Part shown: positions 8,982 through 31,700 of the stretch, in pieces | Layout of the letters: each line of letters starts with the position of its first letter | Position numbering within the stretch: the first letter of the stretch is position 1 | Assembly: GCA_003116975.1 (NCBI GenBank) | Contig: BGKB01000065.1 | Coordinates: 124,001-188,000 of the forward strand | Source of the DNA: Aurantiochytrium sp. KH105 | Lineage: Eukaryota; Sar; Bigyra; Thraustochytrida; Thraustochytriidae | DNA: 64,000 nucleotides | Direction of reading: 5' to 3' | Position numbers and translations under genes: made by a program | The notes under the pieces: model-generated | What the model was told of the DNA's origin: nothing | The model's database searches: none | What the model saw: the letters and a program-made list of their open reading frames with translations, nothing else

Positions 8982-11900
8982 TCAATTCTCGCCGCTCCGG
9001 TACTCGCGGTCATCGTCGTCCTCCTCATCGTCCCAATTTTCACCATCACCTCGAAGCGTTCTGCCAGAAATACTTCGCAATACTGCCGCCCATGTTCGCC
9101 GTCGACGCCCCTCAGAAGGCCTGCCAATGCTGCCAGAAGTTGAGCGCGTTGTACGCAGCCGCTCGCTCTTCCATAGACTGTGTCTGCTTCCTAGAAGTGC
9201 CCTCGCGTTAAGCTGGCTTTGTCCTGAAGCAAAAGTTCCTCTTGGAGACAGCTGTGTATCGCGACGCAGAGGCCTCAACGCAGGAAGAACGTAGGGTGTC
9301 AGGCCCATTCCCCAGAAACGCTCCGCATCGGCATGTGCTTTTGCGTCTTTTTCATTTACCTTCCGAATGAACTTGTACGATTCCGAGTCTGCATTTTGGC
9401 CCTCCCGGTTTCTGCTAATTTCCACTAGGTAGTTTTTCAGGTCTTGTTCTGCCTTTCGTACTTCGTCCGTAAACAGCTTTGCTGTAGTACTTTGCGGTGC
9501 ACCCATTGCCTGCTGCGCTGGATCTTGTACAAGAAAGCCCAACTGGTTCTCTTCAGAGAAATATGTTGCGCATCGAGGATAGCGCATGGCCTCCACTGAG
9601 TCTTTGAGGTCCACCGCCACGGCTGCAAGTCGTTCGATGTCGCCATCCGATAGGACGTCCGTCATTGGATCGTGGCCGTACCACGAATCGCTTGATTTCC
9701 ATCTGGCGTCGCCATTTGAGCCATCTGGCCACCATCTTCGGTCACTGGACGCATCCCACAACGAGCCTGCACGGAAAATGTCGTCAAGCTTTCTTCCCTC
9801 AAGGAAGTGACTGCCTGCCTCGACAGCACCATACCTGTAGGTCGAAAGTGAGGGCGAATCGTCGCTCCCTGCCGAGAACCATGGGTGCCAACGATTTGTG
9901 TCACGACCTAGCCCATTCGAGCCGCCTTGGTCTTCACTTCTTCGCGCATTCTCGCTGCTTGTATCATCCTCCTCCTCAAATTGTATCAGCTTTGCTCGCT
10001 CTCCGGTCGCAAGGTTAACGACTTCGAACTGCTCCTCAAGGGCGTGAATTGCCACCCTCACCGCGAACGCGCATTGGTCTCCCCGCTTCGAAGGTTTGAC
10101 TTTGCGCGCACCACTCCAAATGGAGACGGCAGCCTTTTCGCGCGTCGCATGTCGGAAAGACACGTGCTCCTCGAGATCACGCCAAGATAGCCGTCCTAAA
10201 TCTCTCTCTGGTGAATAAGGTCCCCACTTTCTCCGAGCAGGCCAATATTCACGCATGAGATTTTCTGGGAGCTTGTTCGTGAGAGCGAGGCAATTGTGGA
10301 GCTTGGCTGCGAACTTGCAAAATCGAGTCTTGGTCAACGGTAGTGGAACCACACTGCACCGCGTGCACACACGCACCCACGCAGAGCCCTTGCTTTGGCA
10401 TGCTCGGGTGAGAAGATGATCGCAATATGCTGGTGAGTGATCATCGCGCTGGTACCGACAGTAGCATTGCGAACATTTACTGATATTTCCCTCACTAGAA
10501 GGCTCTCCGCGCATTCCCTCTCCTTCGCCCGCACTCCAAAAATCCTCTCCCTCGTGCTCGCACGAAATACACCTGAGACACGGAAGAACTTCGGGCTTGG
10601 CACCGTCAAGGACAGGCTGCTTCCTCATCAAGCGAGGCTGGCCATGTTTCGAGCAAAAGCATTCATCACAGGTCTCGAGATCCACATCGTGGTCGCACCA
10701 GCCTTTGCAGCGAATGCACCGTCCATGAATGGGTTTCTCATCCTTGCCCCGTCTACGTTTGCAGTAAGAACAGATGCAGAGGTCGCAATATCCATCCGCA
10801 CATCGGTCGCTCGCACAGAGAAATCGTTTGTGTTCGATGCAGTAGCATTTCTCGCACTCCTGGGCTGGAACGGGATGGCCGCACTTGCACGGATCAGTGC
10901 ACAAGAGGCACTGACCATCATCCCGTTCCGATGTCTCGGCTCGTCCAAGGTTCACTCGCCGCTTGTGCTTCGAGCAATAGTGGTCCTCGCACTCGTCCGC
11001 CTTTGGGGCTTTCGTATCGCCAGAACCACGATCCTCGATGTCTTGCTGCGACAGCTTCTGCTTGCACTCCGGACAGGGATCCTCGCATGCAGCGCAACGC
11101 CAAAAGCCGAAATTGCCCTTCACCCTGTATCGCGCGTGCGCAGCGCAGTAGTGCGATGCACACATCGTCTTGGCTCGCTTTCTGTCCGACGGGCACTTCT
11201 CACAGGGGTCGGCGCAAATTGGGCATTGCCCATTCGCCTCCACAAGATCGACACTGCCGTCAGTTTCAACGAGACCTTCATTCGTCTTCTTGTGCATTTC
11301 TCCAAAGCACCAGTGAGCGTCGTCATGTCGCGCACACTCTCGGCGAGTTAAGATGCGGTCTTCGCCCTCGTGATCGTGGTGACACGTCGGCTCACCATTG
11401 CAAACGATGCAGCGGCCGTCGTTCTTCGGGGCCTCGCGCTGGTGCTCCACGCAATAATGACCTCGACGAGGCCCTTCGGGCGGACCGTGGCACTCTGTGC
11501 GCGCGTGCATCATCTCGTCGTCAGGTACGCCGAGGTTGATGCAAAATGGACATGGGTCGACGCAGACTTCGCATTCGCACTTGCCATTGCTATCGGGGCG
11601 GCCAAAGCGCACATGTTTCGAGCACCAATGCAACGTGCACTCCTCTTCCCAGCACACATCTTCTTTACGGACTCCGTCCGCGCGACAAGCATTGCAGCCA
11701 AACGAGCAATTCATGCAGATTCGGTCAGCCTCGGGATCAGCCGTATCGAGCTCCTTCGTCTCGCACTCTGGCTTGTGACTTCCAAGATGCGTCGAGTTGC
11801 AGTCCCAACACACGACGGAAGTGGCGCGGTCATGTATCTCACACCAGCACACTTCGCACTCGGAGCGATTGACATGGTGAGCGCAAGTGCACTCTGGACA

Positions 11901-14900
11901 AAGGCCCGTCAAGACATCGAGCTTGACGTCACGGTGATCAGGATTGCTCTGGCAAAAGCACTTGGCACAGCCGCGTTTGTCGCTACGCAGAGGTTCCCCT
12001 TTATGATTCTCTCGCTGACAATAACAGTCCCCGCAATCTAGTCGGTAGACGAGCTCGTGCTGCGGGCACGGATCAGTGCAGATGAGGCAGAGCTTCTCCC
12101 GAGCAGGATCTCTTTCTTGGCCGGGTACAACTCTTGTCTTGATAAGTTGGTGCTTGACGCAGAAACAGACGTCACAGTCTTGGCGAAGCTTCTTGTTGCG
12201 GCCACTGCAATCGCACAGCGGCTCGTTGCTCTCACAGGCTGGACACGCGTTTTCATCACTCTTGAAGAACTTGTGCGTCTTGCAATAGTGAGTTTGACAC
12301 GACTTCCAGAACCTATAGCGGTGATGCTTTTCAGCGCAAGCCCGGCACCGGCCCGGAGATATGGAGAGCGCACATCTCCAATTGGCTCGAAGGAAGAGCA
12401 CGAGCGGGATCACAACGGCCAGCACGACTAGAATCACGAACAGCAGTCCGAATTCACCCGATATGATCGAGGTTGCCAAACTAACCATGGTCGGGGTAGA
12501 AATGCTTGATAAAAGCAAGATCGGTGTTACAGAGACCGCGAAGACGGTACAAAGAACCACGCAAAAGCACACGAGCATCACACTGAGGATGACCAATTCG
12601 ATACCTTGACTCGGTAATCGCTTCGCAAGGACTATTCCTCGCATGTAGTCAATTGCTGCCTTGCTCTTTTCCTTTCTCTCTGTATTTTTCTCTCCGCTTT
12701 TCGCTGTTCTGGAATGATCCTCGGAATGCGCCTTCTTCTTGACGGGAGAAGAGGGCCATCTCGGCAAACGCTTTCTGAAGTTACCAATGCTGCTGGTGTT
12801 GCCGCTGCTGCCAGCAGGAGGTAATGGTGGATGAAGCATGGAAGCAGAGCTGAAGCTTGCGTTTTCTCCTTGCTGCGACCCATCATCGTCATCCTCATTG
12901 GCATAGTCAGCGCCGTTGTCATCAGTATCGACGTCGTCGTCATCGTCGTCGTCGTCGTCGTCATCGTCATCATCGGTATCGTCGTCATTGGCAACATCAT
13001 CATCGATATCGTCACCATCATCACCATCATCATCGATATCGAGTTCGCCATCACCTTCATCATCAGGAAAGGTCCTCTTGAAGGAGCAAAGGGAACGCTG
13101 ATCTCGACAGACAGCGTTGCCATGACGAACAACAATGCAGATCCCGCTCCACAGTCCAGAAATACATGTCCAAAACGTTCTCCCCAGCCAGCACAACCCT
13201 TTCCACAGACGATGCGTAGTATACCATGCGTATTTAACGCCCACGTCGTAGCCCTCTCTTATAAAAGGCAGAAAGAACCATCTCACGGCTCTGCGTGAGA
13301 AGATAAAGTAGCCAAACCAAGACACCATTGCGACTGCGATAGCAATTGTTTTGGCAACAGCCCAGAACTTCCGGTACGGATGCGCTGCGCAAAGGTGCAT
13401 CTGGGCGTACGCTCTTGTCAAGAAATCGACTGGTTTTTCGTCAATCAGCAGAATGGACTCAGGCATTGAGTAGAAAGGCCCGTGCGCAAAGTCTGCCTCT
13501 TCGACCTCGACGAGCAAATCGTAAAGGGTGTCGTAGTCGATGCAACGGCCCGCAAATGGAACTTGGCTGGGAAGTAAATCCGACAGACGAGTACAATTTT
13601 CGTTTCGTGTCGTCCCTGGCCATTCGGACATGATCACCTGCCCCCACACACACAGGCACACAAGCCCGATGCAGATCGCGAGAGTTGGAAGCGCAGAAAA
13701 CCAAAATATGTACGCAGAGACGGCCCACTTTGTGAGAACTTCCTGCACATAATTTGACAGCATCTCCTTCGTATTATATTTTTCGAGTAGCGGATACGCC
13801 TCCCCTTTCATATCTTCCGTCTTTTTTTCAGCGCCATCCGCGCCCAGTATGCTCAGAATGCCGTTCACGCAACCCTTGAAGCTACACCACTTGGGTCGCG
13901 AACAAGCGCATAAGGCGTGACAACAAGGACTGCTAGATCCTGGTCTGCACTTAGAGCGGGCCCATTCACATCGTACGAGACGCCAAAACCAGTCCGTAAC
14001 GCCCCAGCAGCTGAATCGCGGAAACCAAATGCGTCGTCTGAGCCGTGAGAGGGGGCCTGAGCCTGTGTCTGACGCGTCCAACTGACCAGGTGGTCGTCGC
14101 CAATACAACTCCCGCCTGTTCACCATAGTAAAAGCAAAGAACATCATCTCGACCGCATAGTATGCGGCTATCTTGCCTTCGTCTTGCCCTGTGACTTCTT
14201 GCAACTTTTGTTCGATCCCTCTTCGACGTTCCATGAGGGTCTTTCGCTCCTCTTTGAGTTCATTCATTTTTTCAAAGAGATTGTCCATCGGCACTTGCGC
14301 ATCATGCAAAGTATCCTCGTCCACATCACCATTTCGGTCCAGTCCCTCCGTCACTTTATCGAGCGCAGAGAGCAGGATCTCGCTCCGATCTGCAAATTGC
14401 TTCGCTGCCTCCTGAAGGTTCCGATCAAGACTCTGTAGTCTTTCTTCGATATTCTCCAGCTCCCGCTTCTGGGCAACAAATGTTACCGGTGCGAAGCGGA
14501 ACACTTTTGCCGTGCCTGCATTTCTAGAGTCGCGACTTGCGTCATCATCACCAAAGTGCGCGTTTCGTAGATCTCTGAAAGCATTGGTTGTATATGTAAA
14601 ACCAAATGCCGTATCTTTGAGAAAAGCGTACGGCTTTGTTGCGAACTTCATGATCCAGTGACTTTCTCCGCGATATCGCTCGACAGCGTCGATCTCGCGA
14701 AAGCTAAATACGTACTTTGCGAAGGCATCGGCACTTAGATCAGCAAAGTCGTGCATGGTGAGATAAACCATGGCAACATTCAGAATGGGGCGGTAAAGCT
14801 GTGCTTCCTTCTCTTCGTGCAAAGTTTCGCCGAGCCATGATAGCGCAATGAAGACGACAAGACCAAGACCAATGCCAAAGAACATCAAGATGCGCACTTC

Positions 14901-15944
14901 ATCGTCATAGCAGCTTGCCACCTCGTAGAGACTCCCGTCGCGCCAGCTGTCCCAGGACAAGAGGGTATCGGGTGTTCTCGGGTCGAAGATTTGCGAGGCA
15001 AAGGTCCGAGCAGTAATTTTGTCTGCGTTTTGAAGCAGATTTTCCAGTCGTGAGAGATCGGTGCACTCCCCGAGCCAAAGAAACCTGTTTTGGCCACTGG
15101 CCGCGGCGATCTGTCCAAGACCTTGCGTGCACTCAGTCGGTGGCGCGACCGCTCCATCGCAGTCAAAAGCTGGCCAGACCCAGACAAATGCCCACCAGAA
15201 CAAATAGGCGAGGCAGGTGATGAGCACAAGCCCAAAGAGCGCCCAACAGCACCATGACTCAAAGCGTGAGCCTGCGAACTTGGGCAGGTCCTTGAAGCCA
15301 GTCGACTTCTTTTCTCTTTCGTATTTCATACGATCCTGCTCCTCATTGACAATCTCGTCGTCTTCGTCGTCTTCGTCTCCATTTGTGGGAGCGCTGCCAA
15401 GACCATCTCCATTCGCGGCGACTCCGTCGTGCTCGTCCTTACCTTTTCCCGCGTCGTTTTGCTTGTTCTTGCCGCGATTCCAATGAAAAACCTTGCTCAA
15501 CGATGAAAATCTGCTGGACGTACTGCCAGCAGCACTCTTGCTCTTTGCGTACACACTGATTGCTTCGGGCGCATTAGCGTCTCCAGCTTTTCCTCCTCGT
15601 TGTTCTCCAGACTGACCGCCGTCTGGGTCGTCGTCGTGATGCTGACGATCATCCCCACCATCACCGTCATCGCTGAGATCACCGCCCACGTTCGTTTCTT
15701 TGGACGGAACAACTGCGCCGACCTGCTGTGCCACATGTCCATCGCGGTCGTGAACCGAAAGACCATCCTTAGCCCCCTCGACCTCGGCGCCATTGCGCTC
15801 GTCATCTCCAATCTTCTGTACGGTAAAGTTGCCATTAATCTCGCTGTTTCCGCAATCGTCATCTTGCCCCTCGAATCCGGCAGTGAGCGCCTCGTTTTCG
15901 GTGCCCTTGGCAAGCGCCTTACCCTTGCGGGTTGGCCACCGCAT
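8982..15944 (-). CDS. Paralog B: divergent giant membrane protein with twin ectodomains and a Cys/His-rich array
   Basis: The first ATG of this frame (15,944; the frame extends upstream only through a TTG) gives 2320 residues. Layout: acidic hydrophilic N-terminus (1-228), membrane segment 229-262, Cys domain one (about 261-347), membrane segment 351-371, cytosolic part with a coiled coil (about 489-590) and a Trp/Cys-rich patch (634-692). Then come a membrane segment (741-772), Cys domain two, a membrane segment (861-885), a poly-Asp tract (about 962-1012), two strongly hydrophobic segments (1112-1187), a Cys/His-rich array (1190-1870) and a unique hydrophilic tail ending in a Glu/Asp-rich stretch. 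The plan matches paralogs A and C, but sequence identity is low outside the Cys/His motifs and the CKFAAKLHNC block. It has no Trp repeat array and lies inverted between A and C. Function unknown; no known catalytic motif seen. Confidence 0.85.
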   Translation of the reverse strand: MRWPTRKGKALAKGTENEALTAGFEGQDDDCGNSEINGNFTVQKIGDDERNGAEVEGAKDGLSVHDRDGHVAQQVGAVVPSKETNVGGDLSDDGDGGDDRQHHDDDPDGGQSGEQRGGKAGDANAPEAISVYAKSKSAAGSTSSRFSSLSKVFHWNRGKNKQNDAGKGKDEHDGVAANGDGLGSAPTNGDEDDEDDEIVNEEQDRMKYEREKKSTGFKDLPKFAGSRFESWCCWALFGLVLITCLAYLFWWAFVWVWPAFDCDGAVAPPTECTQGLGQIAAASGQNRFLWLGECTDLSRLENLLQNADKITARTFASQIFDPRTPDTLLSWDSWRDGSLYEVASCYDDEVRILMFFGIGLGLVVFIALSWLGETLHEEKEAQLYRPILNVAMVYLTMHDFADLSADAFAKYVFSFREIDAVERYRGESHWIMKFATKPYAFLKDTAFGFTYTTNAFRDLRNAHFGDDDASRDSRNAGTAKVFRFAPVTFVAQKRELENIEERLQSLDRNLQEAAKQFADRSEILLSALDKVTEGLDRNGDVDEDTLHDAQVPMDNLFEKMNELKEERKTLMERRRGIEQKLQEVTGQDEGKIAAYYAVEMMFFAFTMVNRRELYWRRPPGQLDASDTGSGPLSRLRRRIWFPRFSCWGVTDWFWRLVRCEWARSKCRPGSSSPCCHALCACSRPKWCSFKGCVNGILSILGADGAEKKTEDMKGEAYPLLEKYNTKEMLSNYVQEVLTKWAVSAYIFWFSALPTLAICIGLVCLCVWGQVIMSEWPGTTRNENCTRLSDLLPSQVPFAGRCIDYDTLYDLLVEVEEADFAHGPFYSMPESILLIDEKPVDFLTRAYAQMHLCAAHPYRKFWAVAKTIAIAVAMVSWFGYFIFSRRAVRWFFLPFIREGYDVGVKYAWYTTHRLWKGLCWLGRTFWTCISGLWSGICIVVRHGNAVCRDQRSLCSFKRTFPDDEGDGELDIDDDGDDGDDIDDDVANDDDTDDDDDDDDDDDDDDVDTDDNGADYANEDDDDGSQQGENASFSSASMLHPPLPPAGSSGNTSSIGNFRKRLPRWPSSPVKKKAHSEDHSRTAKSGEKNTERKEKSKAAIDYMRGIVLAKRLPSQGIELVILSVMLVCFCVVLCTVFAVSVTPILLLSSISTPTMVSLATSIISGEFGLLFVILVVLAVVIPLVLFLRANWRCALSISPGRCRACAEKHHRYRFWKSCQTHYCKTHKFFKSDENACPACESNEPLCDCSGRNKKLRQDCDVCFCVKHQLIKTRVVPGQERDPAREKLCLICTDPCPQHELVYRLDCGDCYCQRENHKGEPLRSDKRGCAKCFCQSNPDHRDVKLDVLTGLCPECTCAHHVNRSECEVCWCEIHDRATSVVCWDCNSTHLGSHKPECETKELDTADPEADRICMNCSFGCNACRADGVRKEDVCWEEECTLHWCSKHVRFGRPDSNGKCECEVCVDPCPFCINLGVPDDEMMHARTECHGPPEGPRRGHYCVEHQREAPKNDGRCIVCNGEPTCHHDHEGEDRILTRRECARHDDAHWCFGEMHKKTNEGLVETDGSVDLVEANGQCPICADPCEKCPSDRKRAKTMCASHYCAAHARYRVKGNFGFWRCAACEDPCPECKQKLSQQDIEDRGSGDTKAPKADECEDHYCSKHKRRVNLGRAETSERDDGQCLLCTDPCKCGHPVPAQECEKCYCIEHKRFLCASDRCADGYCDLCICSYCKRRRGKDEKPIHGRCIRCKGWCDHDVDLETCDECFCSKHGQPRLMRKQPVLDGAKPEVLPCLRCISCEHEGEDFWSAGEGEGMRGEPSSEGNISKCSQCYCRYQRDDHSPAYCDHLLTRACQSKGSAWVRVCTRCSVVPLPLTKTRFCKFAAKLHNCLALTNKLPENLMREYWPARRKWGPYSPERDLGRLSWRDLEEHVSFRHATREKAAVSIWSGARKVKPSKRGDQCAFAVRVAIHALEEQFEVVNLATGERAKLIQFEEEDDTSSENARRSEDQGGSNGLGRDTNRWHPWFSAGSDDSPSLSTYRYGAVEAGSHFLEGRKLDDIFRAGSLWDASSDRRWWPDGSNGDARWKSSDSWYGHDPMTDVLSDGDIERLAAVAVDLKDSVEAMRYPRCATYFSEENQLGFLVQDPAQQAMGAPQSTTAKLFTDEVRKAEQDLKNYLVEISRNREGQNADSESYKFIRKVNEKDAKAHADAERFWGMGLTPYVLPALRPLRRDTQLSPRGTFASGQSQLNARALLGSRHSLWKSERLRTTRSTSGSIGRPSEGRRRRTWAAVLRSISGRTLRGDGENWDDEEDDDDREYRSGEN
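12910..13060 (-). repeat. Poly-aspartate trinucleotide tract in paralog B
   Basis: GTC/ATC/ATT triplets on the + strand encode a run of Asp broken by Val, Ile and Gly on the minus strand (residues about 962-1012). Length is likely variable between strains. Confidence 0.85.
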
Positions 15945-16445
15945 CTTCACGTTTTTGCTGCCGCTCCGCGACCCTATCTCCGTCGCGTCAGGGTCACGCA
16001 GAGTCGGAGTCCGCAGCCGCTGCCGAGTCCGAGTCCTGCGCAGGAGTCGAAAGTCGATTGCTGCAGCTGCTGCTGGCAGCAGCAGCAATCAACCAAGTGT
16101 CAACGCCAGTGAAAGTTTGGCCTCGTGCGTGCACAAGCAGCACGCGCTGCAGCTGCGCGTGCAGCCTGGAAGCAAGACCGCAATCCTCAGCCACCAGCCA
16201 CGTCCTCGATTTGCATGTTTTCCTTTGCTTTCCTCCTTTGCTTTGCTCTGGTTTGTCTGCACGTTGCCTCGCCTGCCGCCCACCATGGCCAGTGGAGAAG
16301 CTCCTGGCCAAACAGAACACCAGCAGCCCGTCTCGGAGCGGCAGACTCTACGTCAGCGTCTCGCAGAAGCTAGCGTGCTTGCCGCGCTTGACCAAACCTA
16401 GCCCGAAACTCGTCGTCGAGGTCTCGCGAGACGAATCCACTTGTT

Positions 16446-18431: not shown

Positions 18432-21400
18432 ATGACGAAGCTCCTGCCGCATCACGATGTGCAAACCGCAATGCCAGCCATGAGGAGAGCGGGCTTCGGG
18501 AGGGTCGCTGCGGCGGAGGCAGCGCCGGCGGCGACGACGAGATCGCCCGCGAATCATGCTTCGGAGTCGTCAGAGTCCGATACCCAGCGGAAGGGGCAGT
18601 CAAGGGTCATCCACATTCTGCGGCTTGTCGTTGAGGTTCCACGCGCACTCGTTGTGGTGCTCCTCCGAGGCTTCTTCGTGCCTCTTTTCTGGCTCGTGTC
18701 CATTTACTTTTCGGTGAAATTTGGTATAGATGGCGTATGCGCCCAAGATACCTTGCTGGGCGCTAACCTCACGTGTGCTTCGATCGGTGAAGAAGCGCAG
18801 AACCAAGGGGTGACCGATGTGCTTTGGATGGGCTCATGCACGGCCCTCGAAGACATCCGTGATCTCCTCGAGGAAAGCGGTTACCTGGAGCGCACCAGCT
18901 TTCTGGACTTGATTGTACGCAACAACATTCGGGATATGAGTATCCCTGAGGCCCTCGCGCGAACCACCAAGTGCTACGATTGGGGTTCGAAGATCATCTT
19001 CTATTGTTGGAACGCTATCATTCTTCTCACAGCCTTCTTGTTCCCTCGCTTGCTCGGTGTGTATCTCCACGCAACCAAGGAAGCTAAATTCCGTCGGCCC
19101 ATCCAGGATCTCGCCACGCGTTTGGTCTGGGACAAGTATTTTGGCAATGGCGGAAGGAAAAGAGGCCAGATAGCGAAGCCAGAGCCTAAAACTTGGAAGT
19201 CTCTTCGAAAAAGTCTTCAAATCTTTCAAAATGAGACGGGCCAAGAAGCGCCACTTTCGCACAGGGGAAAATGGTACATTCTCCGTGACATCCTGCAGCC
19301 TTCGAGGCCATATGCTGTCGGGACCCAAAAGCTAGCTCCCCAAAGCCTCGCGAAGCTTGTCAACCTCGTTGAACCCGAGGAACCGGAGAATGAAAATGAG
19401 ATTGAAGACGAGGATGGCGCCAACGACGAGGTCGCCGACGCTGCCAGAGAAAGAGACTTTGAGTCAGAAATTCTCTTGGCGCGCAATCGGGTCGACGAAG
19501 TCGAGCAAGACACCAAGGCTTTATATGAAGAGCTAAATTCTGCTTTCGACGAGTATCGACACGCCCGAGAAGGTCCTCATCCCGCTCATGCAAGCACCAT
19601 TGCTCAGGCGAAGGAAGCATTGGACGTTGCGCGCAGTCAATTTCACGATGCCACAACGGAACTTCGAAAGGCCCAAAAGTCTCTTGAAGATCTGTACGAG
19701 AAACGCCGGCAGTACGGCGTCAAGCTAAAAAGTGAGCGAGATAAGGGGAAGCGACCGAGCGTAATCATGCAAGCCGTCATACAGGCTGTCGAGAGCGAAG
19801 AGCGGACCTGGACGTTCAAACAGTGGCTGCGAGGCGTCTGGAGTATCCTGTGGAATGGGCATGGCTTCTCGAGCAAGAATCACACCCCGTCCGCGGTCGC
19901 CCCTCAACCGGAAGAGGAATCTGGCAATATTTTGTCTGCCGAGGTCCGGCACAAGGACGAAGAGGATAGCCCTTCCAAGCAAAATACATGGGAAGAGCAG
20001 GCTACAGAATATGCAAAACAGGTGGTTGCGCGATGGGAGAAACTAGCATTCATCGGCTTGGTCTTCTCGTGGATCGCGCTCTTCGTCTATATTGTTACAC
20101 TCATTGCGTGGCCCGGCGCCAACGACATCATGGCGACACTTGGAAAAAGTGTTTCCGATTCGATCGCGGCGAGTCCTGGCTGCGCTCGCCTCTCCGACAT
20201 CGTCGCAAATCGTATCGTCGCATTTGGAGGCGAATGCGTCGAGACGGAGACAATCAGAAGTTTCCTTGAGGTACTAGAAACCACAGCGAGCATCGAAAAA
20301 CAGATCGCAAACTTGGACTCGGTGCTCTACTCTTTTGTGAAAGACGGGGAAAAGCAGAACTTCTTATTACGCTTTATGGAGCAGACAAAGTATTGCGCGC
20401 CACCCTCTCGATCTGGCCAGTTCTTTGCTAACACCAACATCATGCGCGCGGTACTGCTTCCCTCCATTGTGCTTCCTACATTCACCTTTTTCGTCTATGT
20501 GCCGACGAAACACCGCCATTTCATACCCAAGTGGTTCAAAGACTTCGTCTACAAAACGTATCGTATCATCAGGCAAGCCATAATCGTCACGACTAAGTGG
20601 ACATTAGCTATGATCGAGAGCCTTCTCGGCGCTACGATACATTGTCTCATCGCGACGATGGCTGGAATAGGACGTGCCATCATAAGCCTTTGGAAACGCC
20701 TTCGCGCGATTGATGCAAAGCGCAATTCTCTGGACAGAATCCCACGCCCTCCCGAGCAAGAGCTAATGCTGCAACGAGGTCCTGAAGATTACAAATGGCC
20801 TGCCTTTGTGGCACTCCTAGTGGCTTGCATGGGCTCTGTGATTGGCATCCTGGTGTGGAAATTTGCATCTCCTGAGGTAGGATCTTCCGTGCCATCGGCA
20901 CCCCCGACAATGGCGACGCTGACGCCCGCACCGACGCAATTCCCCACGCGTGCGCCTACGCCAAATCCGACCTTTTCCCCAACGAATGCGCCAACTGCGC
21001 CGACGACACCTGCTCCGACGGAAGCAGGCCTTGATGACTATCAGATTGCCACCATTGCGGCGGGCGTCGTCGTCTTTCTCATCCTCCTTGGCGCGCGAAG
21101 GCACATCTCACGATTTCTTGTCGGCTTCGCCAAGGGCGCCACCTCGGCTGCTGCTACTGGAGCGCATCATATGGCTTTGTTCTTGAGTGGCCTCGGAAAT
21201 GGAATCATGTTGGTGCTGAGCATCCTCTTTGATATCACTTCCCACGCGTTGGAGAGCTTATGGCGAAGAGTCATCTGGGCAGGGGGGAAAATTGTCGGAG
21301 TGGTTTCCAAAATGTGGCAGCGCATTGTCAGCACAGTCGCTATGACGTGGAATGCCTTTGTTGGTGTTGTGAAAGGGCTATGGTTCGGCATTGTGCGCCT

Positions 21401-24400
21401 GACTACGTGGGCATGGAATACTCTCACGAGCGTCGTGTCACGGACCTGGAAGTTTATCATTCGCATCGTTGAGCGGATTTGGACGACATTCACGTACGTT
21501 GTTGCACGCGTGTGGTTTTCCTTTGTGAGTGGTGTTGCATTCGTCTGGAAGGGCTTCGTGCACGTGGTCACCAGAGTTTGGGAAACTGTTGTCGGGGCAG
21601 TTGCTTGCGTCTGGCTCACCATTGTTCGGGTGGTTTCGGGTACCTGGAAGGCTTTCATTGGGGGGGTCGAAATGTTATGGAACGCTCTATGTTTTGTCGT
21701 CGAAGCAATCTGGAAAGGTATCGTAGCGGTGATTGCTGGGATTTGGAAAGTCTTTACCGGAAGCATCGTCTTGCTCTGTACTGCGTTCGGCAAAGGTGTC
21801 GTCATGGTCTGGACCCCCATTGACCGTTTCTTTGGTATCACCGCCTGGATCCCAGCTTCTATCCTCTCCTTCTTGACTGGTGTCGCTCGGGGTACTCAGA
21901 GAGCTTGGAAAGCTCTCGTCAAGACTATCACCTTCGTTTGGAAAACCTTTACCCAGAGCGTCGCCACGGTCAGGGATACCGTTGTGCGTATCGTTTCAAA
22001 GTCTTGGAAGGGCATCGTCTCTTTTGTTTCTTCAGCCTGGAACACGCTGGTGGATGGAGTAAAAATGGTCTGGAGGAACATCTACAACTTTGTCTCATTC
22101 AGCTGGTTGGGGCTGGTCTTCATAATTAGCTCCGCGTGGGGACATCTCGTTTCTGGGGTCGTTTTCGTCTGGAACGGCCTCGTCAAACTCGTCAAGGCGA
22201 CCTGGAATACCCTAGTCTGGGCAATCAAGTCTACATGGTTTTTCTTGGTCAACATTGTGACCACGGCCTGGAGCTTGCTCGTCTCTATTGTCACGAAAAC
22301 CTGGTTTTCTATTGTTTTCGTCGTCACTAAAACTTGGCAAGCTCTCGTCAAGACGGTCGCTTTTGTGTGGAAGACGTTCGTGCAAGTCGTGACAGGCACG
22401 GCACAAGCAATCAAGTGGATCTGGACTACGTGCGTCGCGGCGATCGTCAGAGCGTGGAAGACCCTTGTTCGGGTGGTATCGCTGACTCGGACCGTCATCA
22501 CATCAGCGGCTACTCTGATCGCAAAGAACACACTTTGGGCCGGAACCACTTGCGCTCTGGGAGTTGTTCGGACGTGGACACGAATCAAGAAGCTCGCAAG
22601 CTGGACCCGGAAACGTCTTGTGCAGGGCGCCTTGCGGCTGTGGAAACTTGCAAAGACTGTTGGTACGCTTGTGGCCAAAGCTCTCATTTACATTGTCATC
22701 GGCATCCCGCTCGCCATACTCGTTTGCGCTCTCGCAGTCGGTTCTGTTGCCTTGGGCGTGGCGGTTCTTCTGGTCGCGGGCGCAAGCGCTATTGCGATTG
22801 GAATTCCTCTCGGTGTCATCTTCTTCATTGCAAAGGGTGTTCAGCGGCTCGTGCAAAAGTTGGCGCAAGGGCTTCGCGCATTGCACAATATTGTTGTATC
22901 TCACCTTCCATTTCGGTGCGAGCTCTGCGCTCTGGAGTTTCACCGTTACCGACGCTGGTATAGGTGCCCTGATCACTACTGCAGAACACATCGTTTCCGT
23001 GTTGATACCAAGATTTCCAAATGCCCAGAATGCAACGGCCAGCGTCTTTGCAATTGTAAGTCCCCAACCCGGCCGTTGCTCGAGGAGTGCGATATATGCT
23101 TCTGTACGAAGCACAATAAGGAAAAGAAGTTGCCCGTTCGCGGTGGCTATTGCGGAAGGAGTCGCATGGAGTGTTACATCTGCAATGACCCGTGCCCAAA
23201 TCACGACGATCTCCATCGAACGGAGTGCACTGAGTGCTTTTGTGTCAGACACAATCTGCCGAGGACCGAGATCCGGGATGGCAAAAAGGGGTGTACTCAG
23301 TGCTTTTGTGAAAATCATCCAGACATCAAGCTGAACAACAAGGACCAATGCCCAATATGCCATTGCCGCCACGAGCGGTCACGCGCTAGTTGCAGTACTT
23401 GCTGGTGCCCAATTCACCATGCCAGGAAGCACATTAGGTGTTCGACGTGCGGGGATCTACACGCAGATGACGAGGCAAGCTGGAACTCTCGCTGCGTAAG
23501 AACCGAACGCACAGAGTGCCTCTGCTGCACTGACGGGTGCGAGAAATGTCGAGAGGACACAAAGGTTGCTGAGGAAGACATTCCGTGGCGCGAGGAGTGC
23601 TCGCGCCATTGGTGCGCACTCCATCGGCGAAGTGAAGACGAAAGTAAGGAACCGAACGCCAGTGGAAAATGCAGTGTTTGCAGGGATCCTTGCCAGATCT
23701 GCCAGGCCAACAAGGTTTCAAGTCATGAGCTTCCAGCTCGTAAAGAGTGCGAAGAGCATTGGTGCGAAATGCATAAACGTCAAGAGTGTGTCATTTGTAG
23801 TGGCATCGAGCAAGCTTGTCCTTATCCCCATGAACCAAGCGTGGACAAGGTTCTGACGCGGAGCGAGTGTGCCGAAGAGGGTCGACATTGGTGCCGGAAC
23901 GTTTCGCATCGTCACACCTTCGAACCGGGCCGGGATACCGACGATCTGGAGGGACAGGATCTGAACTTTGTGGACCGCGAAGGCTTTGTGGATCTTACAG
24001 AGAACTCCACGTGGTGTCCGGTGTGTAACGACCCCTGCGGCGAATGCGCAGATGGCTGCAAGCAGGCTCGCACCACTTGCGAGAAACACTTTTGCGTCGG
24101 CAAGCACTGCATTCCAAAGACGCGTCGTGGGGACGTTGACGCCTGGGTGTGTGAGCCCTGCGAGGATCCGTGCTTGACGTGCAAAAACGAGGGATTGACT
24201 CCCCCATTGCGCACGGCTTGCAAACGCCACTACTGCAAAACGCATAAGCGCGACGTCAATGAAGGACGACTCGAGTCTGAGCGGAGAGACGATGGGGAGT
24301 GCCTTGTTTGCACGGATCCGTGCAGCTGTCACGAAGGCAAAGCTCTCCCGGAGTGCAAAAAGTGTTTCTGTACAAAGCACGAGAGAAGCCTTTGCACGAA

Positions 24401-25934
24401 CCGTGGCGCTTGTGCAGAGGAGTTTTGCTCCGAGTGCACTTGCATCTTTTGCAAGAACGACATCAGTCTTCGAAATCCCAAAATTTCAGCAGAAAGATGC
24501 CAGACATGCGAGTACTTTTGCAAGCACGTCCAAGATCGCACTTCATGCGACATTTGCTGGTGCTCTGTGCATCATCAGCTACGAGTTATCGAAAACGAGG
24601 GCGAAAATACCATTGACGGCCATCCTTGGCCCTGTGCTGAATGTTGTCGGCATGCGAAGGAGCCCACAAAATGCTCCATCTGCTGGTGCTCTAAACATGA
24701 TACGCTTCGTAACTTTAAAGGCTCACGGGAGGACTACATTGATGGCCATCGTTGGCCATGTGATAAATGCTGCAAGCATGCGAAGGAGCCCACAGAGTGC
24801 GACATTTGCTGGTGCTCTAAGCACGGCAGGCCTCGAGACATTGGAGACCCACTGGAGGACCGCATTAATGGCCATCTTTGGCCTTGCGCTGCATGCTGCA
24901 AACATGCAAAAGAACCTTCAAAATGTAGCGTTTGCTGGTGCTCCGTGCATGATGAACCACGAAATGTGGAAAACGAGGATCTTGAGACCATTGATGGTCA
25001 TCCGTGGCCATGTCCGAAGTGCAAACCATGTGAGCATAGGGTATGGACTCGCGAAAAGTGTGAAATCTGCTATTGCAGAACTCACAAAGAGTACAAGATT
25101 GCAATCTACCCAACAGAAGCTTTACCAGATCCAGGAGAAGATGGTGACGGTGCTGACGGTGGCCTCTTTGCGGCGTTGAGCACATCACAGGAACGATATT
25201 GTTCCAAGTGTGGAAAAATACCCGGTCCGCTGACGAAGAAGCGCTTCTGCAAGTTTGCTGCAAAGTTGCATAACTGCCACAACCTCGACGACCAAAACGA
25301 GTTTATTTCGTGGAAGGAAGTATGGAACCATGTGACGGCTGATCTGTGGAACGAGGCAACGAGTCATTTTACAGAGGGCGGCAGAACGGAGAGGAGGCCA
25401 GACGAGAGGTTTTTGAACGTAATCAGGACTGGGCAATATGCAATTAAGCCCTTTGTCGAGAACGCAGCTTCGGACCTGCAAATTCATCGAATGTGGCTCT
25501 TTTTTGACCGACGACGACCCAATAGTGCACGGAGTGACGAGCCGAGTCCGAGCACAGGAAATCAATATGACAAAGATTACGTAATCGAATTGTTCGAGAG
25601 AGCAAAGGACAGTTGGACGAAGGATAGCGAGGATGTAGTTTTTCACGACCCAGCTGCCGACATTCTCTGTAGATCGGATCTGGACGAGATGGCGTCCCTT
25701 GGAAAGGAAACGCCAAAGGTCTCCAGATTTGAATACCGGAAGGTTTTTTCTGGCGAAAAGTTCGAGGAGCAGCTTAAGAGGGAAGGCGTTTTTGAAGAAT
25801 TCAGAGGTCTTGATCCGACAGGATATTCGAGGAGAACTGGGGACAAGATTGAAGATGAGAAAGAAAATGAGCAGCTTTACCAGATGCTGATGGAACGACG
25901 AGATGCCGAAGCAGACGTATTTGCTTCTTCCTGA
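18432..25934 (+). CDS. Paralog C: giant membrane protein with twin ectodomains, a Trp 11-mer array and a Cys/His-rich array
   Basis: The product is 2500 residues and starts at an ATG that paralog A lacks. Order seen: membrane segment (about 64-97), Cys domain one with sequon N112 (98-188), membrane segment (188-214), coiled coil (336-450), membrane segment (538-562), Cys domain two (575-668), membrane segments near 672-694 and 791-812. Then come a Pro-Thr linker of SPTNAPT type (815-862), a membrane segment (872-892), about 30 tandem 11-residue units usually beginning with Trp (962-1352), a long hydrophobic hairpin (1411-1470), a Cys/His-rich region with about 105 Cys (1495-2225) and a hydrophilic C-terminal domain. 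No enzyme motif is seen. It is the only intact full-length member of the A/C pair. The Cys/His motifs (CxxCxCxxH, CxxHxCxxH, CxxCxDPC) suggest many bound zinc ions, but this is inference. Role unknown. Confidence 0.88.
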   Translation: MTKLLPHHDVQTAMPAMRRAGFGRVAAAEAAPAATTRSPANHASESSESDTQRKGQSRVIHILRLVVEVPRALVVVLLRGFFVPLFWLVSIYFSVKFGIDGVCAQDTLLGANLTCASIGEEAQNQGVTDVLWMGSCTALEDIRDLLEESGYLERTSFLDLIVRNNIRDMSIPEALARTTKCYDWGSKIIFYCWNAIILLTAFLFPRLLGVYLHATKEAKFRRPIQDLATRLVWDKYFGNGGRKRGQIAKPEPKTWKSLRKSLQIFQNETGQEAPLSHRGKWYILRDILQPSRPYAVGTQKLAPQSLAKLVNLVEPEEPENENEIEDEDGANDEVADAARERDFESEILLARNRVDEVEQDTKALYEELNSAFDEYRHAREGPHPAHASTIAQAKEALDVARSQFHDATTELRKAQKSLEDLYEKRRQYGVKLKSERDKGKRPSVIMQAVIQAVESEERTWTFKQWLRGVWSILWNGHGFSSKNHTPSAVAPQPEEESGNILSAEVRHKDEEDSPSKQNTWEEQATEYAKQVVARWEKLAFIGLVFSWIALFVYIVTLIAWPGANDIMATLGKSVSDSIAASPGCARLSDIVANRIVAFGGECVETETIRSFLEVLETTASIEKQIANLDSVLYSFVKDGEKQNFLLRFMEQTKYCAPPSRSGQFFANTNIMRAVLLPSIVLPTFTFFVYVPTKHRHFIPKWFKDFVYKTYRIIRQAIIVTTKWTLAMIESLLGATIHCLIATMAGIGRAIISLWKRLRAIDAKRNSLDRIPRPPEQELMLQRGPEDYKWPAFVALLVACMGSVIGILVWKFASPEVGSSVPSAPPTMATLTPAPTQFPTRAPTPNPTFSPTNAPTAPTTPAPTEAGLDDYQIATIAAGVVVFLILLGARRHISRFLVGFAKGATSAAATGAHHMALFLSGLGNGIMLVLSILFDITSHALESLWRRVIWAGGKIVGVVSKMWQRIVSTVAMTWNAFVGVVKGLWFGIVRLTTWAWNTLTSVVSRTWKFIIRIVERIWTTFTYVVARVWFSFVSGVAFVWKGFVHVVTRVWETVVGAVACVWLTIVRVVSGTWKAFIGGVEMLWNALCFVVEAIWKGIVAVIAGIWKVFTGSIVLLCTAFGKGVVMVWTPIDRFFGITAWIPASILSFLTGVARGTQRAWKALVKTITFVWKTFTQSVATVRDTVVRIVSKSWKGIVSFVSSAWNTLVDGVKMVWRNIYNFVSFSWLGLVFIISSAWGHLVSGVVFVWNGLVKLVKATWNTLVWAIKSTWFFLVNIVTTAWSLLVSIVTKTWFSIVFVVTKTWQALVKTVAFVWKTFVQVVTGTAQAIKWIWTTCVAAIVRAWKTLVRVVSLTRTVITSAATLIAKNTLWAGTTCALGVVRTWTRIKKLASWTRKRLVQGALRLWKLAKTVGTLVAKALIYIVIGIPLAILVCALAVGSVALGVAVLLVAGASAIAIGIPLGVIFFIAKGVQRLVQKLAQGLRALHNIVVSHLPFRCELCALEFHRYRRWYRCPDHYCRTHRFRVDTKISKCPECNGQRLCNCKSPTRPLLEECDICFCTKHNKEKKLPVRGGYCGRSRMECYICNDPCPNHDDLHRTECTECFCVRHNLPRTEIRDGKKGCTQCFCENHPDIKLNNKDQCPICHCRHERSRASCSTCWCPIHHARKHIRCSTCGDLHADDEASWNSRCVRTERTECLCCTDGCEKCREDTKVAEEDIPWREECSRHWCALHRRSEDESKEPNASGKCSVCRDPCQICQANKVSSHELPARKECEEHWCEMHKRQECVICSGIEQACPYPHEPSVDKVLTRSECAEEGRHWCRNVSHRHTFEPGRDTDDLEGQDLNFVDREGFVDLTENSTWCPVCNDPCGECADGCKQARTTCEKHFCVGKHCIPKTRRGDVDAWVCEPCEDPCLTCKNEGLTPPLRTACKRHYCKTHKRDVNEGRLESERRDDGECLVCTDPCSCHEGKALPECKKCFCTKHERSLCTNRGACAEEFCSECTCIFCKNDISLRNPKISAERCQTCEYFCKHVQDRTSCDICWCSVHHQLRVIENEGENTIDGHPWPCAECCRHAKEPTKCSICWCSKHDTLRNFKGSREDYIDGHRWPCDKCCKHAKEPTECDICWCSKHGRPRDIGDPLEDRINGHLWPCAACCKHAKEPSKCSVCWCSVHDEPRNVENEDLETIDGHPWPCPKCKPCEHRVWTREKCEICYCRTHKEYKIAIYPTEALPDPGEDGDGADGGLFAALSTSQERYCSKCGKIPGPLTKKRFCKFAAKLHNCHNLDDQNEFISWKEVWNHVTADLWNEATSHFTEGGRTERRPDERFLNVIRTGQYAIKPFVENAASDLQIHRMWLFFDRRRPNSARSDEPSPSTGNQYDKDYVIELFERAKDSWTKDSEDVVFHDPAADILCRSDLDEMASLGKETPKVSRFEYRKVFSGEKFEEQLKREGVFEEFRGLDPTGYSRRTGDKIEDEKENEQLYQMLMERRDAEADVFASS
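20881..21020 (+). repeat. Pro-Thr-rich linker in paralog C
   Basis: The segment encodes short PT/APT/SPT repeats (PTPNPTFSPTNAPT and similar). This type of linker is common in stramenopile extracellular and membrane proteins. It sits between membrane segments five and six, so it should be non-cytosolic if the predicted topology is right. Paralog A keeps only the final PTTPAPTEAG part. Confidence 0.75.
21315..22487 (+). repeat. 33-bp coding repeats: Trp-anchored 11-residue units
   Basis: Trp recurs at exact 11-residue spacing over about 390 residues. Example units: WKAFIGGVEML, WNALCFVVEAI, WKGIVAVIAGI, WNTLVDGVKMV, WKTLVRVVSLT. I count about 14 units, an interruption of roughly 30 residues around 21,800-21,900, then about 17 more. 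In a few units Trp is replaced (CTAF, RDTV). The consensus is roughly Trp, polar, any, aromatic/aliphatic, Val/Thr, any, any, Val, three variable. At DNA level the units are well diverged, so the pattern is held by selection rather than by recent copying. Paralogs A and B lack it. Confidence 0.9.
24612..24989 (+). repeat. 126-bp coding tandem repeats (3 units) in paralog C
   Basis: Three 42-residue units start at 24,612, 24,738 and 24,864, each with the core IDGHxWPCxxCCxHAKEP, then CxxCWCSxHD/G. A fourth, degenerate unit starts at 24,990 (IDGHPWPCPKCKPC). The decayed tail of paralog A keeps fewer units, so copy number has changed since the duplication. Confidence 0.9.
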
Positions 25935-28724: not shown

Positions 28725-31700
28725 ATGGATCTCATCGGCAGTCTCGAGGACCTCGAGGATGAAGGCACCCTCGTCGAGGTCCTCAGGGAGGTGAGCAGCG
28801 TCCTGACCATGGGTCAAACGGACATGCGGACGCAGCCGCTGGTACCTTGCCTGTTGCGCATCGTTCAACAGTGTCAACGTACGCCCGAGGCAGTCTTGCT
28901 CGCTGCACGATCGCTGAACATGATCCTTGACATGGAGCCACGTATGACGCGCATCGTCGTGAATGAGCAAGGCCTCCCCATTCTCTGCGACAAACTGCTG
29001 TCCTTTCAAGATTTCGAGGTCGCCGAACAATGCTTGAACTGTCTGCACTTTATCGCACAAAACGATCATCGGGACACGTCTGCGCAGCTACTTTCCCTCC
29101 TTCGCGCCGGAGGCATGCACGCCTGTACAGCTTTTTTCGACTTCTTTCCCAAACACATGCAGATCAAGGCGCTCACGATAGTGTGTAAAATCTGCAAGCA
29201 CGTCTGCGATGATACGAAAGATCGCGCACACGTTTCCGACGCCTCTTACGTACTACAGGTTCTGCCAGCTTTGCACAAGTGTCTCTCTAGCGCCGACGAT
29301 GACCAAGTTTTGCGCCTCGTATGCACGGCCCTCTGGACGCTCGTAGAGAGATATGAGAAAGACTATTCACGCGAGGACTTGCGCAAGTCGCGCGCTGGCT
29401 ACGATGACAAACCCCGCAGCAACGGCAAGGCTCCGAAGAGAGGCAATCGGAAACGCCGCGGAAAACGCAAAGATAAGCTGCACGGCTGGCAGCATGTTAT
29501 GATTCGCGAGATTGTTCCAGACGCAGTCTCCAGCAAGCTTGTTGGCTTTGCCCATGGACAAGCCGACGGCGGCGGCGGCAGTGTTGGTGGCTCCGAGGGC
29601 GCCGATGCCAAACTGGACTCGGATCTACTATCGCTCGTCATGCGCACGCTGGCATGCACGGCACGCGCAGACGCAACCCGCGTGCTCACTCTCGTGCAGA
29701 AAGGCATTCTCGAGTTCATCTCGGGGCGTCTCGAGCTCGTGAGTAGCCGGGATATGCCCCCGACACCTGAAGGTGCTGTCTCCAACACTGCCGCGCCGGA
29801 TGCAAACAGGACGTTAGGAAAGCTACGCAGAATGGAGCACGACCTCGCGGATACGCTCGAGCTCGCATCAGCTCTTTTCCTTGAAATGCCCGGCCGCGAG
29901 GTCCTCTGCGACGAAGATGCCATGACCGCTCTCTTCACAGCAACAAACGAGGTCTCGAGCTCCACACAGCAGGGCGACAGGGCGGACTTTCGCTCCACAA
30001 ATGGAATCGATGGACTTTGGGGCTCCGTCTCCGTGAGTCTGCCGTCTCTCCCCGAGCAAAGTCGAGCGATCCGCGCGGCGCAGCTTTGTGACGCTCGCGA
30101 GAGCCGCGAGGACTCTCTCGATGGTGGCGAGGCCCAGGATTCCTTCTCTTCTCGGTATGGCGCCTCCGAGACGAACGACGGAGCTGAGGCTGGCGCTGCT
30201 GCGGCCGCCGCTGCCGCTGCAGAGGCAGGCATTTGGGCCTGCCCAACTTGTACATACCACAATCCAGTGAGCCAAACATCATGCGAAATGTGTGGTCAAG
30301 TTTGTCCGGAGATCTCGCAACGCGCTGCGGCTGCCAAACCAGACTCGCGTCCTACAGTGGAGTCCCTCATGAGTCAAGATGATGCTTCCAACGCTGCATC
30401 ATCTTCTCTATGGGATGTGTACATGGACCAACCCGCGTTGGCAGAGCACTGCTACTCGACGCTCGCAGGCCGTCTTCTCAAGGTCGCAACAGAGTCGAGC
30501 ATGCCCGGGTCCCGCGCACACGCTCTTGAAGTGTATGGTGGACTTGTGCTGGGATTGCCCTCGGATTCGGTCCAAGACCTTCGACGGGCGACGCTAAACC
30601 GCAGCACGGGAGCTTTCGCGTCCGCATTGACGTCAAATGACGTGGACCTTGTGCGTACCTCTCTGCGATGTCTGGCCATCGATCTTTGGCGAGTTCCGAT
30701 TCAGGCCTTTCGTCGAATCGTTGGTCGCGAGGGTCTCGTACCGCGACTCCGTCTGCTCACCAAAGCGCATGGCTCCGAAGCGATTCCAGCGCTCGCGACC
30801 ACAGTCTTGCGCAGATTGCACACGTTACAAGGTGAACCTTGCGAACACCCCAAGACGGCTCCGTGCGAGGTCTGCTCGCCCACCGCAGAGAGCGAAGTTC
30901 TCCTTGCGCTTGGCGAGCTCGTGAGCCAGCTTTCCGAACTTGCCGAGTGCTCAACCAAGTTCCTGGAAAACACCGCAACAGAAGAAGAGAGCATTCCTCG
31001 TGACACGATGCAAGAGTCCTGCTTTTCTTCGGAAGAGGAAGACGACGACAACGACTATGGGGATGAGTCTGGCGTCTTTCTCGGAGGAGAGGCCGCGGCA
31101 ACTTCTGCCACCTCCTCGTCCTCCTCGTCCTCGTCCTCCTCTGCATTTTCACGCCGCGCAGAGGCCAACGCGGGAGGCGCGGACGCGAGTGGACAAGGCG
31201 ATGGGCTTTCCAAGAGCCGAGGCAAGGTTCGAGGTAAGGGGCGACGGAAGCGTCGAAGCATGAGCCAGCCCGCAACAGCAAAAGGAAGGAGCTCGAAACG
31301 CACCAAGAGCCGTACGCATCCTGCAGTCGGGGAAGCAGCCAGTCCTCCAAAAAACCCGGAAGACGTGGGGACCCTGCAAGAGCAAGACATGCACCAGCAC
31401 GAGCTGACGCGAGGCTCAGATCAGCGGGAAAACCGGCAAATGCAGGCGCAACAGCAGCCGGCGACAAAGCGCCGTCGTTTGTTTTCGCCCGTGAACCACA
31501 TGGATGCCTGTGGAATCATCTTCAACGGTGCACAGGACGAACGAATGCAGGACAAGATTGCAAGCGCCATGGTGAAAGCGCTCGAGTCTCTCAAGAGGAT
31601 CTTTGCCTCCGAGGATGGCGTGACCTCGTTTGAAATGCGAAGTGCTGGCGTGGCGACTGTTCTTGCTCGCGTGCTGTCAACGACTCCTGGTCGCAAGGCT

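Follow-up and report, generated by a model that had tools for sequence, protein, structure and literature searches.

How does a predicted membrane protein of a thraustochytrid come to carry a repeat familiar from the tail rulers of bacteriophages, and what might the repeat do there? The question is raised by a stretch of 64,000 nucleotides from Aurantiochytrium sp. KH105 (assembly GCA_003116975.1, contig BGKB01000065.1, positions 124,001 to 188,000 of the forward strand), referred to here as the window and numbered from its first letter, which holds three paralogous open reading frames (ORFs), A, B and C. An array of Trp-anchored 11-residue units (21315-22487) lies in frame within ORF C. Judged from its sequence, the array is built like the repeat of a tape-measure protein, without good evidence of descent from one, so that the likeness is one of shared repeat grammar and not of demonstrable homology. 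The three ORFs and the parts of the array are as follows.

18432-25934, + strand: ORF C, 2500 residues, predicted multi-pass membrane protein carrying the array
1758-6878, + strand: paralog A, without the array; it closes early, although DNA similarity to C reaches 7800
8982-16088, - strand: paralog B, without the array
21315-21776, + strand: arm 1, residues 962-1115, 14 consecutive Trp-anchored 11-mers
21777-21905, + strand: elbow, residues 1116-1158, with Pro1129, Pro1141 and a register slip of -1
21906-22400, + strand: arm 2, residues 1159-1323, 15 units, 14 of them with Trp
22401-22484, + strand: irregular end of the array, residues 1324-1351

Residues 962-1351 of ORF C contain 35 Trp, of which 30 sit in at least one pair at spacing 11. 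Against 26 such pairs observed, 10,000 shuffles average 2.95 and never exceed 10, and the unbroken 11-step runs of 14 and 12 Trp compare with a maximum of 6 in 20,000 shuffles. Ten TGG at exact 33-nt steps give eight overlapping matches in the window, all of them in the array, and none in 100 dinucleotide shuffles. A chance origin of the spacing is excluded by these residue-shuffle, run-length and dinucleotide-shuffle nulls, and a six-frame scan of the window found no further Trp run of three or more outside the array. The first-pass annotation had described about 30 Trp at exact 11-residue steps over about 390 residues; the number and the step stand, but not the continuity. The Trp fall into two blocks (962-1105 and 1159-1313) separated by the elbow, the distance from 1105 to 1159 is 54 and not 55 residues, Arg replaces Trp at position 1181 of arm 2, and the stretch past 1313 is irregular. 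The array is unique to paralog C, as had been claimed, within the window: A and B, which align to C at 82% and 30% identity respectively, have two isolated W-x10-W pairs apiece. One of the pairs in paralog B belongs to a short Trp-rich stretch (13080-13220, - strand) near residue 962 of B, about 33 residues past a predicted transmembrane segment, which is possibly a seed of such repeats.

Within the 11-mer, Trp (column 1), Ile, Leu or Phe (4), Val (5) and Val or Ile (8) make up one apolar face, and the opposite face carries Lys, Arg, Ser, Thr and Asn; this hydrophobic phase is already present near residue 928. The array is 58-62% hydrophobic, about 17.5% aromatic and 11-12% charged, is rich in Val, Thr, Phe and Trp, and has 38 Lys and Arg against seven Asp and Glu in residues 962-1351. 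Over residues 890-1418 there are two Pro and nine Asp or Glu, where 29.8 and 74.8 would be expected from the rest of the protein, and both Pro sit in the elbow turn.

The statements that the DNA units are diverged and that their spacing is under selection have both been borne out. Mean identity between units is 45%, adjacent units are no closer than distant ones, and Tandem Repeats Finder reports no row inside the array. The second codon base does not vary at columns 1 and 4 and hardly varies at column 8, and the third base at columns 4 and 8 varies almost freely, with an entropy of about 1.6 bits out of 2. Where two units have the same residue, their codons are identical at a rate of 0.321, while synonymous shuffles average 0.337 (445 of 500 equal or exceed the observed rate), and silent sites therefore keep no overall memory of duplications. 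They are saturated, or randomised, between units beyond the divergence from paralog A, so that the 11-mer pattern has been kept by selection, in agreement with the codon-base constraint and with run lengths beyond the null. Recent tandem duplication is rejected on the same figures, the best unit pair reaching 79% DNA identity. The unit pairs from residues 1159 (21906-21971) and 1302 (22335-22400) are unusually alike, with 79% identity in the DNA of the first unit, and this likeness is perhaps the trace of an older block duplication.

The hydrophobicity of the array has a power of 62 at period 3.65, against 11.6 at a shoulder at 3.70 and 3.2 or less at the other top periods, which is the periodicity of an 11/3 helix, and in both blocks the hydrophobic moment is highest at 98 degrees per residue. 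Inside each arm the apolar face keeps a constant direction, at -31 to -54 degrees over residues 928-1125 and between -124 and -154 degrees over residues 1148 to about 1323, and it turns across 1126-1147, which leaves it rotated by about 95 degrees at the elbow. An AF2 model, built from the single sequence without an alignment, predicts two helices with no breaks within the arms, the break between them coinciding with the proline elbow (lengths computed at 0.15 nm per residue):

21147-21833, + strand: predicted helix 1, residues 906-1134, 229 residues, 34.4 nm
21855-22523, + strand: predicted helix 2, residues 1142-1364, 223 residues, 33.5 nm

The pLDDT of the model is 66-76 at about residues 1010-1119 and 1150-1259; it is 43-59 in helix 1 ahead of the first of these ranges and 51-59 in helix 2 past the second. 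The proposal of one straight Trp stripe along a very long helix is accordingly kept for its 11/3 periodicity and altered in its geometry, since the model places two helices of about 34 nm at either side of an elbow. A Foldseek comparison of the model with the PDB gave three matches, none at E 0.001 or better, and a sequence search for relatives of solved structure gave none at E below 0.2, two superoxide dismutases appearing at E 0.24 and 0.37.

The array could also be imagined as a chain of short helices that cross or re-enter the membrane, and seven non-overlapping 19-residue stretches of residues 962-1351, one of them in the elbow, do score above 1.6 by Kyte-Doolittle, with a maximum of 2.19. 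However, only 9% of all 19-residue windows in the array exceed that value, Lys and Arg recur through both arms, and the predicted secondary structure is continuous. The separate short transmembrane helices that the first-pass annotation had set against a repeat are thus not seen, and a chain of this kind is very unlikely.

The resemblance to the W-x10-W tape measures of siphophages, noticed at the outset, is supported by profile search, translated search and annotation alike, as a resemblance of repeat grammar. In a PHROG search with the array (E up to 1), 11 of the 16 families matched are tape-measure families, including the best six (E 5e-26 to 2.7e-5); of the remaining five, four have no known function and one is a phage membrane protein. 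By tblastn, 150 phage records were matched, the best at 5e-15 over 99% of the query, and 49 of 60 evenly sampled rows are annotated as tape measure, with the remaining 11 annotated as hypothetical, tail, membrane or PblA; the tape-measure annotation is also carried by five of seven plasmid records. Moreover, the mean hydrophobicity profile of the unit correlates with that of nine phage proteins (179 units) at r 0.92, or 0.87 without the Trp column, compared with 0.72 at the next best shift and -0.58 when reversed.

Matches of this strength, whether to PHROG profiles or to phage genomes, raise the possibility that horizontal transfer of a phage tape-measure gene gave rise to the array, and phrog_4200 scores the native array at 92 bits against 68, 73 and 70 for three column-shuffled arrays, a number of shuffles too small to weigh much. 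Nevertheless, all three column-shuffled arrays keep strong PHROG matches (best E 2e-19, 8e-22 and 6e-21), whereas two of two full shuffles, the reversed array and a Trp-fixed control have no match at E 0.01. For nine of nine individual tape-measure proteins the native score lies within the column-shuffle range, with 63-277 of 300 shuffles at or above it. The part that is shared is therefore mostly or wholly the unit and its direction, and not the order of units. In addition, no tape-measure PHROG matched the N-terminal (18432-20999) or C-terminal (22548-25931) parts of ORF C, and the GC content at third codon positions is 0.638 in the array, inside the range of the neighbouring genes (0.560-0.692; whole ORF C, 0.585). 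The Pfam-matched neighbours all belong to families other than phage tail genes. Transfer from a phage is thus highly improbable. A search for relatives of the family gave one viral-contig match, to a phage tape-measure-like ORF over query residues 915-1409; of 114 candidate stretches from a two-pattern scan of a collection of prokaryote genomes, none was confirmed as a relative.

The array and the siphophage Trp/Phe 11-mer tape measures have in common the Trp-anchored 11-residue unit, the long straight helix (PMC3271669, PMC5099701, in the portions consulted) and a hydrophobicity profile that agrees in register and direction. They differ in that the array lies within a predicted multi-pass membrane protein of a eukaryotic genome with no tape-measure match outside the repeats, is Val-rich at columns 5 and 8 and Lys-rich at column 2, and is more basic than most. 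The TP901-1 tape measure is described as helical and straight, with a length of 0.145 nm for each residue, and one whole 11-mer in it was swapped for alanine without harm (PMC5099701, in part), suggesting that single Trp need not matter one by one.

Trp ladders at exact 33-nt steps were also scanned for in viral contigs (ten Trp) and prokaryote genomes (twelve Trp); at least 120 stretches were found in each, and the figures that follow describe samples. Among the stretches listed, 120 for each collection, 114 from viral contigs and 81 from genomes are in frame and open, and 64 and 21 of these, respectively, are array-like, defined as a profile r of at least 0.7 without the Trp column and unit identity below 0.7. 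The non-array parts of 58 of the 64 viral and 20 of the 21 genome ORFs were scanned for families, the exceptions being six viral ORFs with fewer than 150 residues before the array and one genome ORF (L209) with too short a non-array part. Matches to phrog_58 were found in 49 of the 58 viral and to phrog_1272 in 18 of the 20 genome ORFs, both being tape-measure families, although the scanned parts may hold stray repeat units. Within this sample, then, the grammar is found mostly in tape measures, with the protein in the window as an exception. A profile opposite to that of the array (r -0.5 or below, down to -0.8) was seen in 15 of the open frames listed (e.g. L042, L066, L073, L111, L113, L130 and L153), so an 11-step Trp ladder alone does not give tape-measure grammar. 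W-x10-W arrays whose unit is hydrophilic and of the WDKTKEGTEKA type, which call LEA-type 11-mers to mind, were encountered in L209 (Acetobacter) and also in L167, L157 and L234. In a Firmicutes ORF (L198), 46 Trp follow one another exactly 11 residues apart, and the unit profile is array-like (r 0.78).

The first-pass annotation had further likened the array to the 11-mers of perilipins, which would allow a helix that targets lipid droplets. The giant 3-11 helix of perilipin 4, as presented in the portions of PMC5889406 and PMC8064757 consulted, is likewise an 11-mer amphipathic helix of hundreds of residues, and positive charge and length are also in keeping with such a function. In composition the likeness fails: the Plin4 helix has a moment of 0.257, a hydrophobic fraction of 0.35, an aromatic fraction of 0.002 and a charged fraction of 0.15 (PMC5889406, Table 1), whereas the corresponding values for the array arms are 0.41-0.46, 0.58-0.62, 0.175 and 0.11-0.12. 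The weakly hydrophobic face without bulky residues that typifies Plin4 is replaced in the array by a bulky aromatic face with a stronger moment. The array has, moreover, predicted membrane anchors at both ends, and ORF C has no perilipin match in Pfam. Lipid-droplet targeting of this type is therefore quite improbable.

The position of the array relative to the membrane was approached through a Kyte-Doolittle scan in 19-residue windows. Hydrophobic stretches lie ahead of the array at residues 73, 195, 540, 670, 725 (weak), 791, 870 and 915, with a Pro/Thr-rich linker, seen on inspection, between those at 791 and 870, and after the array at residues 1418 and 1440. Those that border the array are as follows.

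21039-21095, + strand: predicted transmembrane segment upstream of the array, residues 870-888, with a net charge of +4 in the 15 residues on the array side
21174-21230, + strand: hydrophobic stretch just ahead of the array, residues 915-933, Kyte-Doolittle score 2.05
22683-22805, + strand: predicted transmembrane hairpin downstream of the array, residues 1418-1458

Net charge in the 15 residues past the stretches at 195, 670 and 870 is +2, +4 and +4, and the predicted segment 1418-1436 has +3 in 15 residues on its array side. Positive charge tends to mark the cytosolic flank of a membrane segment (the positive-inside rule). If the stretches at 725 and 915 do not span, this rule places the array and the Cys/His-rich tail that follows it in the cytosol, and by this predicted topology the array is probably on the cytosolic side of the membrane.

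The reading that we favour, at a probability of roughly 0.42 and hence tentatively, is that the array forms two basic, proline-free, amphipathic 11/3 rods of about 34 and 33 nm, joined by a proline elbow and lying in the plane of a membrane. Both ends of the array would be tethered by the predicted transmembrane segments, and a wide apolar basic helix would rest lengthwise on the cytosolic leaflet, its Trp close to the interface and its Lys and Arg toward the lipid head groups, a setting that would suit the composition of the array better than water. A long in-plane rod of this kind may stiffen or space a patch of membrane, or position the Cys/His-rich tail. Of the elements of this reading, the sequence itself shows the periodicity, the apolar face, the charge, the placing of the prolines and the constraint; helicity and transmembrane topology are predicted, and contact with the membrane and the function are inferred.

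Several observations weigh against this reading. The AF2 model has a mean pLDDT of 57.9 and a pTM of 0.27, and the outer ends of the array reach only 50-59. Residues 915-933 score as a possible transmembrane segment; were they to span the membrane, the array would be luminal and the tail would have a topology unlike that of paralog A, although the stretch runs into predicted helix 1 and the array is basic, both of which argue against spanning. Basic charge is not peculiar to the array: at 0.83 net per unit it is exceeded by two of the 64 array-like viral ORFs listed (L021 and L082), and 11 of the 64 are net positive. Same-face runs in tape measures live in a protein tube, and an apolar face is no proof of membrane contact. 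Paralog A lacks the array, which is thus not essential to the family fold. In an Eisenberg-type plot, no window of any segment, the array among them, came out as surface-seeking, and the plot was judged unusable and was not used. The charge recount and the 915-933 stretch lowered our confidence in the membrane rod from 0.45 to its present value of 0.42.

The same apolar columns also suit a hendecad coiled coil, in which the arms would pack against each other in an antiparallel hairpin, or would join with those of other molecules in the way of tape-measure trimers. The product would be a rigid spacer or ruler, 34 nm long, that stands out from the membrane. The core positions of a hendecad are a, d, e and h, which correspond to the apolar columns 1, 4, 5 and 8 of the array, and the period of 3.65 is that of a hendecad core. 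The near-equal predicted arms and the close agreement with tape-measure units described above point in the same direction, and the DT57C tape measure is reported as a trimeric coiled coil (PMC10713586, in part). On the other hand, the array places Trp at one core position nearly throughout, is very high in Val, Thr and Phe, and has few charges on its outer face, unlike hendecad coiled coils in general. Its mean hydrophobicity of 0.76-0.82 greatly exceeds the 0.11 of the Glu-rich segment at residues 342-460 of the same protein, and the pTM of the model gives no evidence of packing. The in-plane membrane rod is preferred over a coiled coil between the arms or between molecules, which we regard as somewhat unlikely.

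The absence of the array from paralog A bears on its age. A single in-frame difference separates the two genes at this point:

21201-22547, + strand: 1347 nt in C, where A has 3 nt (4815-4817)

Outside the array, A and C have identical codons at 72-95% of same-residue sites, depending on the region, with a synonymous divergence (dS) of 0.10-0.52. Since units are saturated while codons of A and C are still this similar, the array predates the A-C split, provided that it grew in place, and an array younger than the split is unlikely. Loss in A, or insertion into C of an array that was already old, would fit the sequences better. The string CGGAA occurs near both edges of the stretch (21194 and 22541) and may have been used there, but its two copies stand 1347 nt apart and the net A/C difference is 1344 nt. 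An intron was rejected, as the frame is open throughout, codon constraint is position-specific, and no GT/AG was seen by eye exactly at the A/C boundaries. Silent divergence between A and C (1124-7800) is a mosaic, with dS 0.29, 0.52, 0.11 and 0.10 in order along the gene, a pattern that a later exchange of the 3' part would produce. Long open frames on the - strand opposite the array (21167-21841 and 22082-22687) are probably a mechanical effect of repeated codons and not genes.

Family searches add little to the identity of the three proteins. Pfam searches with E up to 0.1 found no family for ORF C or paralog A, paralog B gave a sub-threshold DUF2207_C trace alone, and nothing was above cut-off with ncbifam or for the array region against Pfam. 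Searches of Rfam at the gathering threshold and for tRNA found none. Other features of the family, identified by inspection and alignment, are listed below.

22917-25046, + strand: Cys/His-rich repeats of ORF C, a good part of them common to A and B
18705-19019 and 20109-20435: Cys-containing domain, two copies in ORF C
1989-2303 and 3372-3698: Cys-containing domain, two copies in paralog A
14898-15182 and 13359-13628: Cys-containing domain, two copies in paralog B

The Cys/His-rich repeats, which have no Pfam match, probably bind zinc; in the C-terminal tail of ORF C, a 126-bp tandem repeat of 2.6 copies (24611-24943) corresponds to Cys/His modules of 42 residues. The Cys-containing domain is predicted to be luminal and seemingly occurs twice per paralog, with three Cys columns invariant across the six copies; its AF2 model (mean pLDDT 51.2) was too weak and was not used. 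Pfam-matched neighbouring genes encode HECT/SPRY, ankyrin-TIR, HEAT, cNMP-binding and CoA-transferase proteins. Among these, a single-ORF HECT ligase of 3188 residues with SPRY and a TRIP12-like N-terminus (28725-38291) points to an intron-poor eukaryote, and an ankyrin-repeat protein has a TIR domain at its C-terminus (38739-41699). The window as a whole has a GC content of 56%, and its long single ORFs carry domains of eukaryotic type.

One class of phage tail ruler is known by its Trp-anchored 11-mers, in which the role of Trp is still open. No case of the pattern in eukaryotic proteins was found in the open-access literature within the wording searched, and the significance of the array holds only if no long-known eukaryotic family has such arrays. 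It is conceivable, though unlikely, that a eukaryotic membrane protein has independently evolved tape-measure grammar as a true ruler, with two 34-nm arms tethered at both ends that set a fixed distance on or between membranes, and with loss of the array, as in A, giving a short version. Since this grammar recurs in a membrane protein that is otherwise unrelated, and good evidence for descent is lacking, the pattern may be a solution of general use wherever a helix has to be very long and straight and present an apolar face. ORF C thereby offers a second system in which to examine the role of Trp, and the paralogs with and without the array provide a ready natural comparison.

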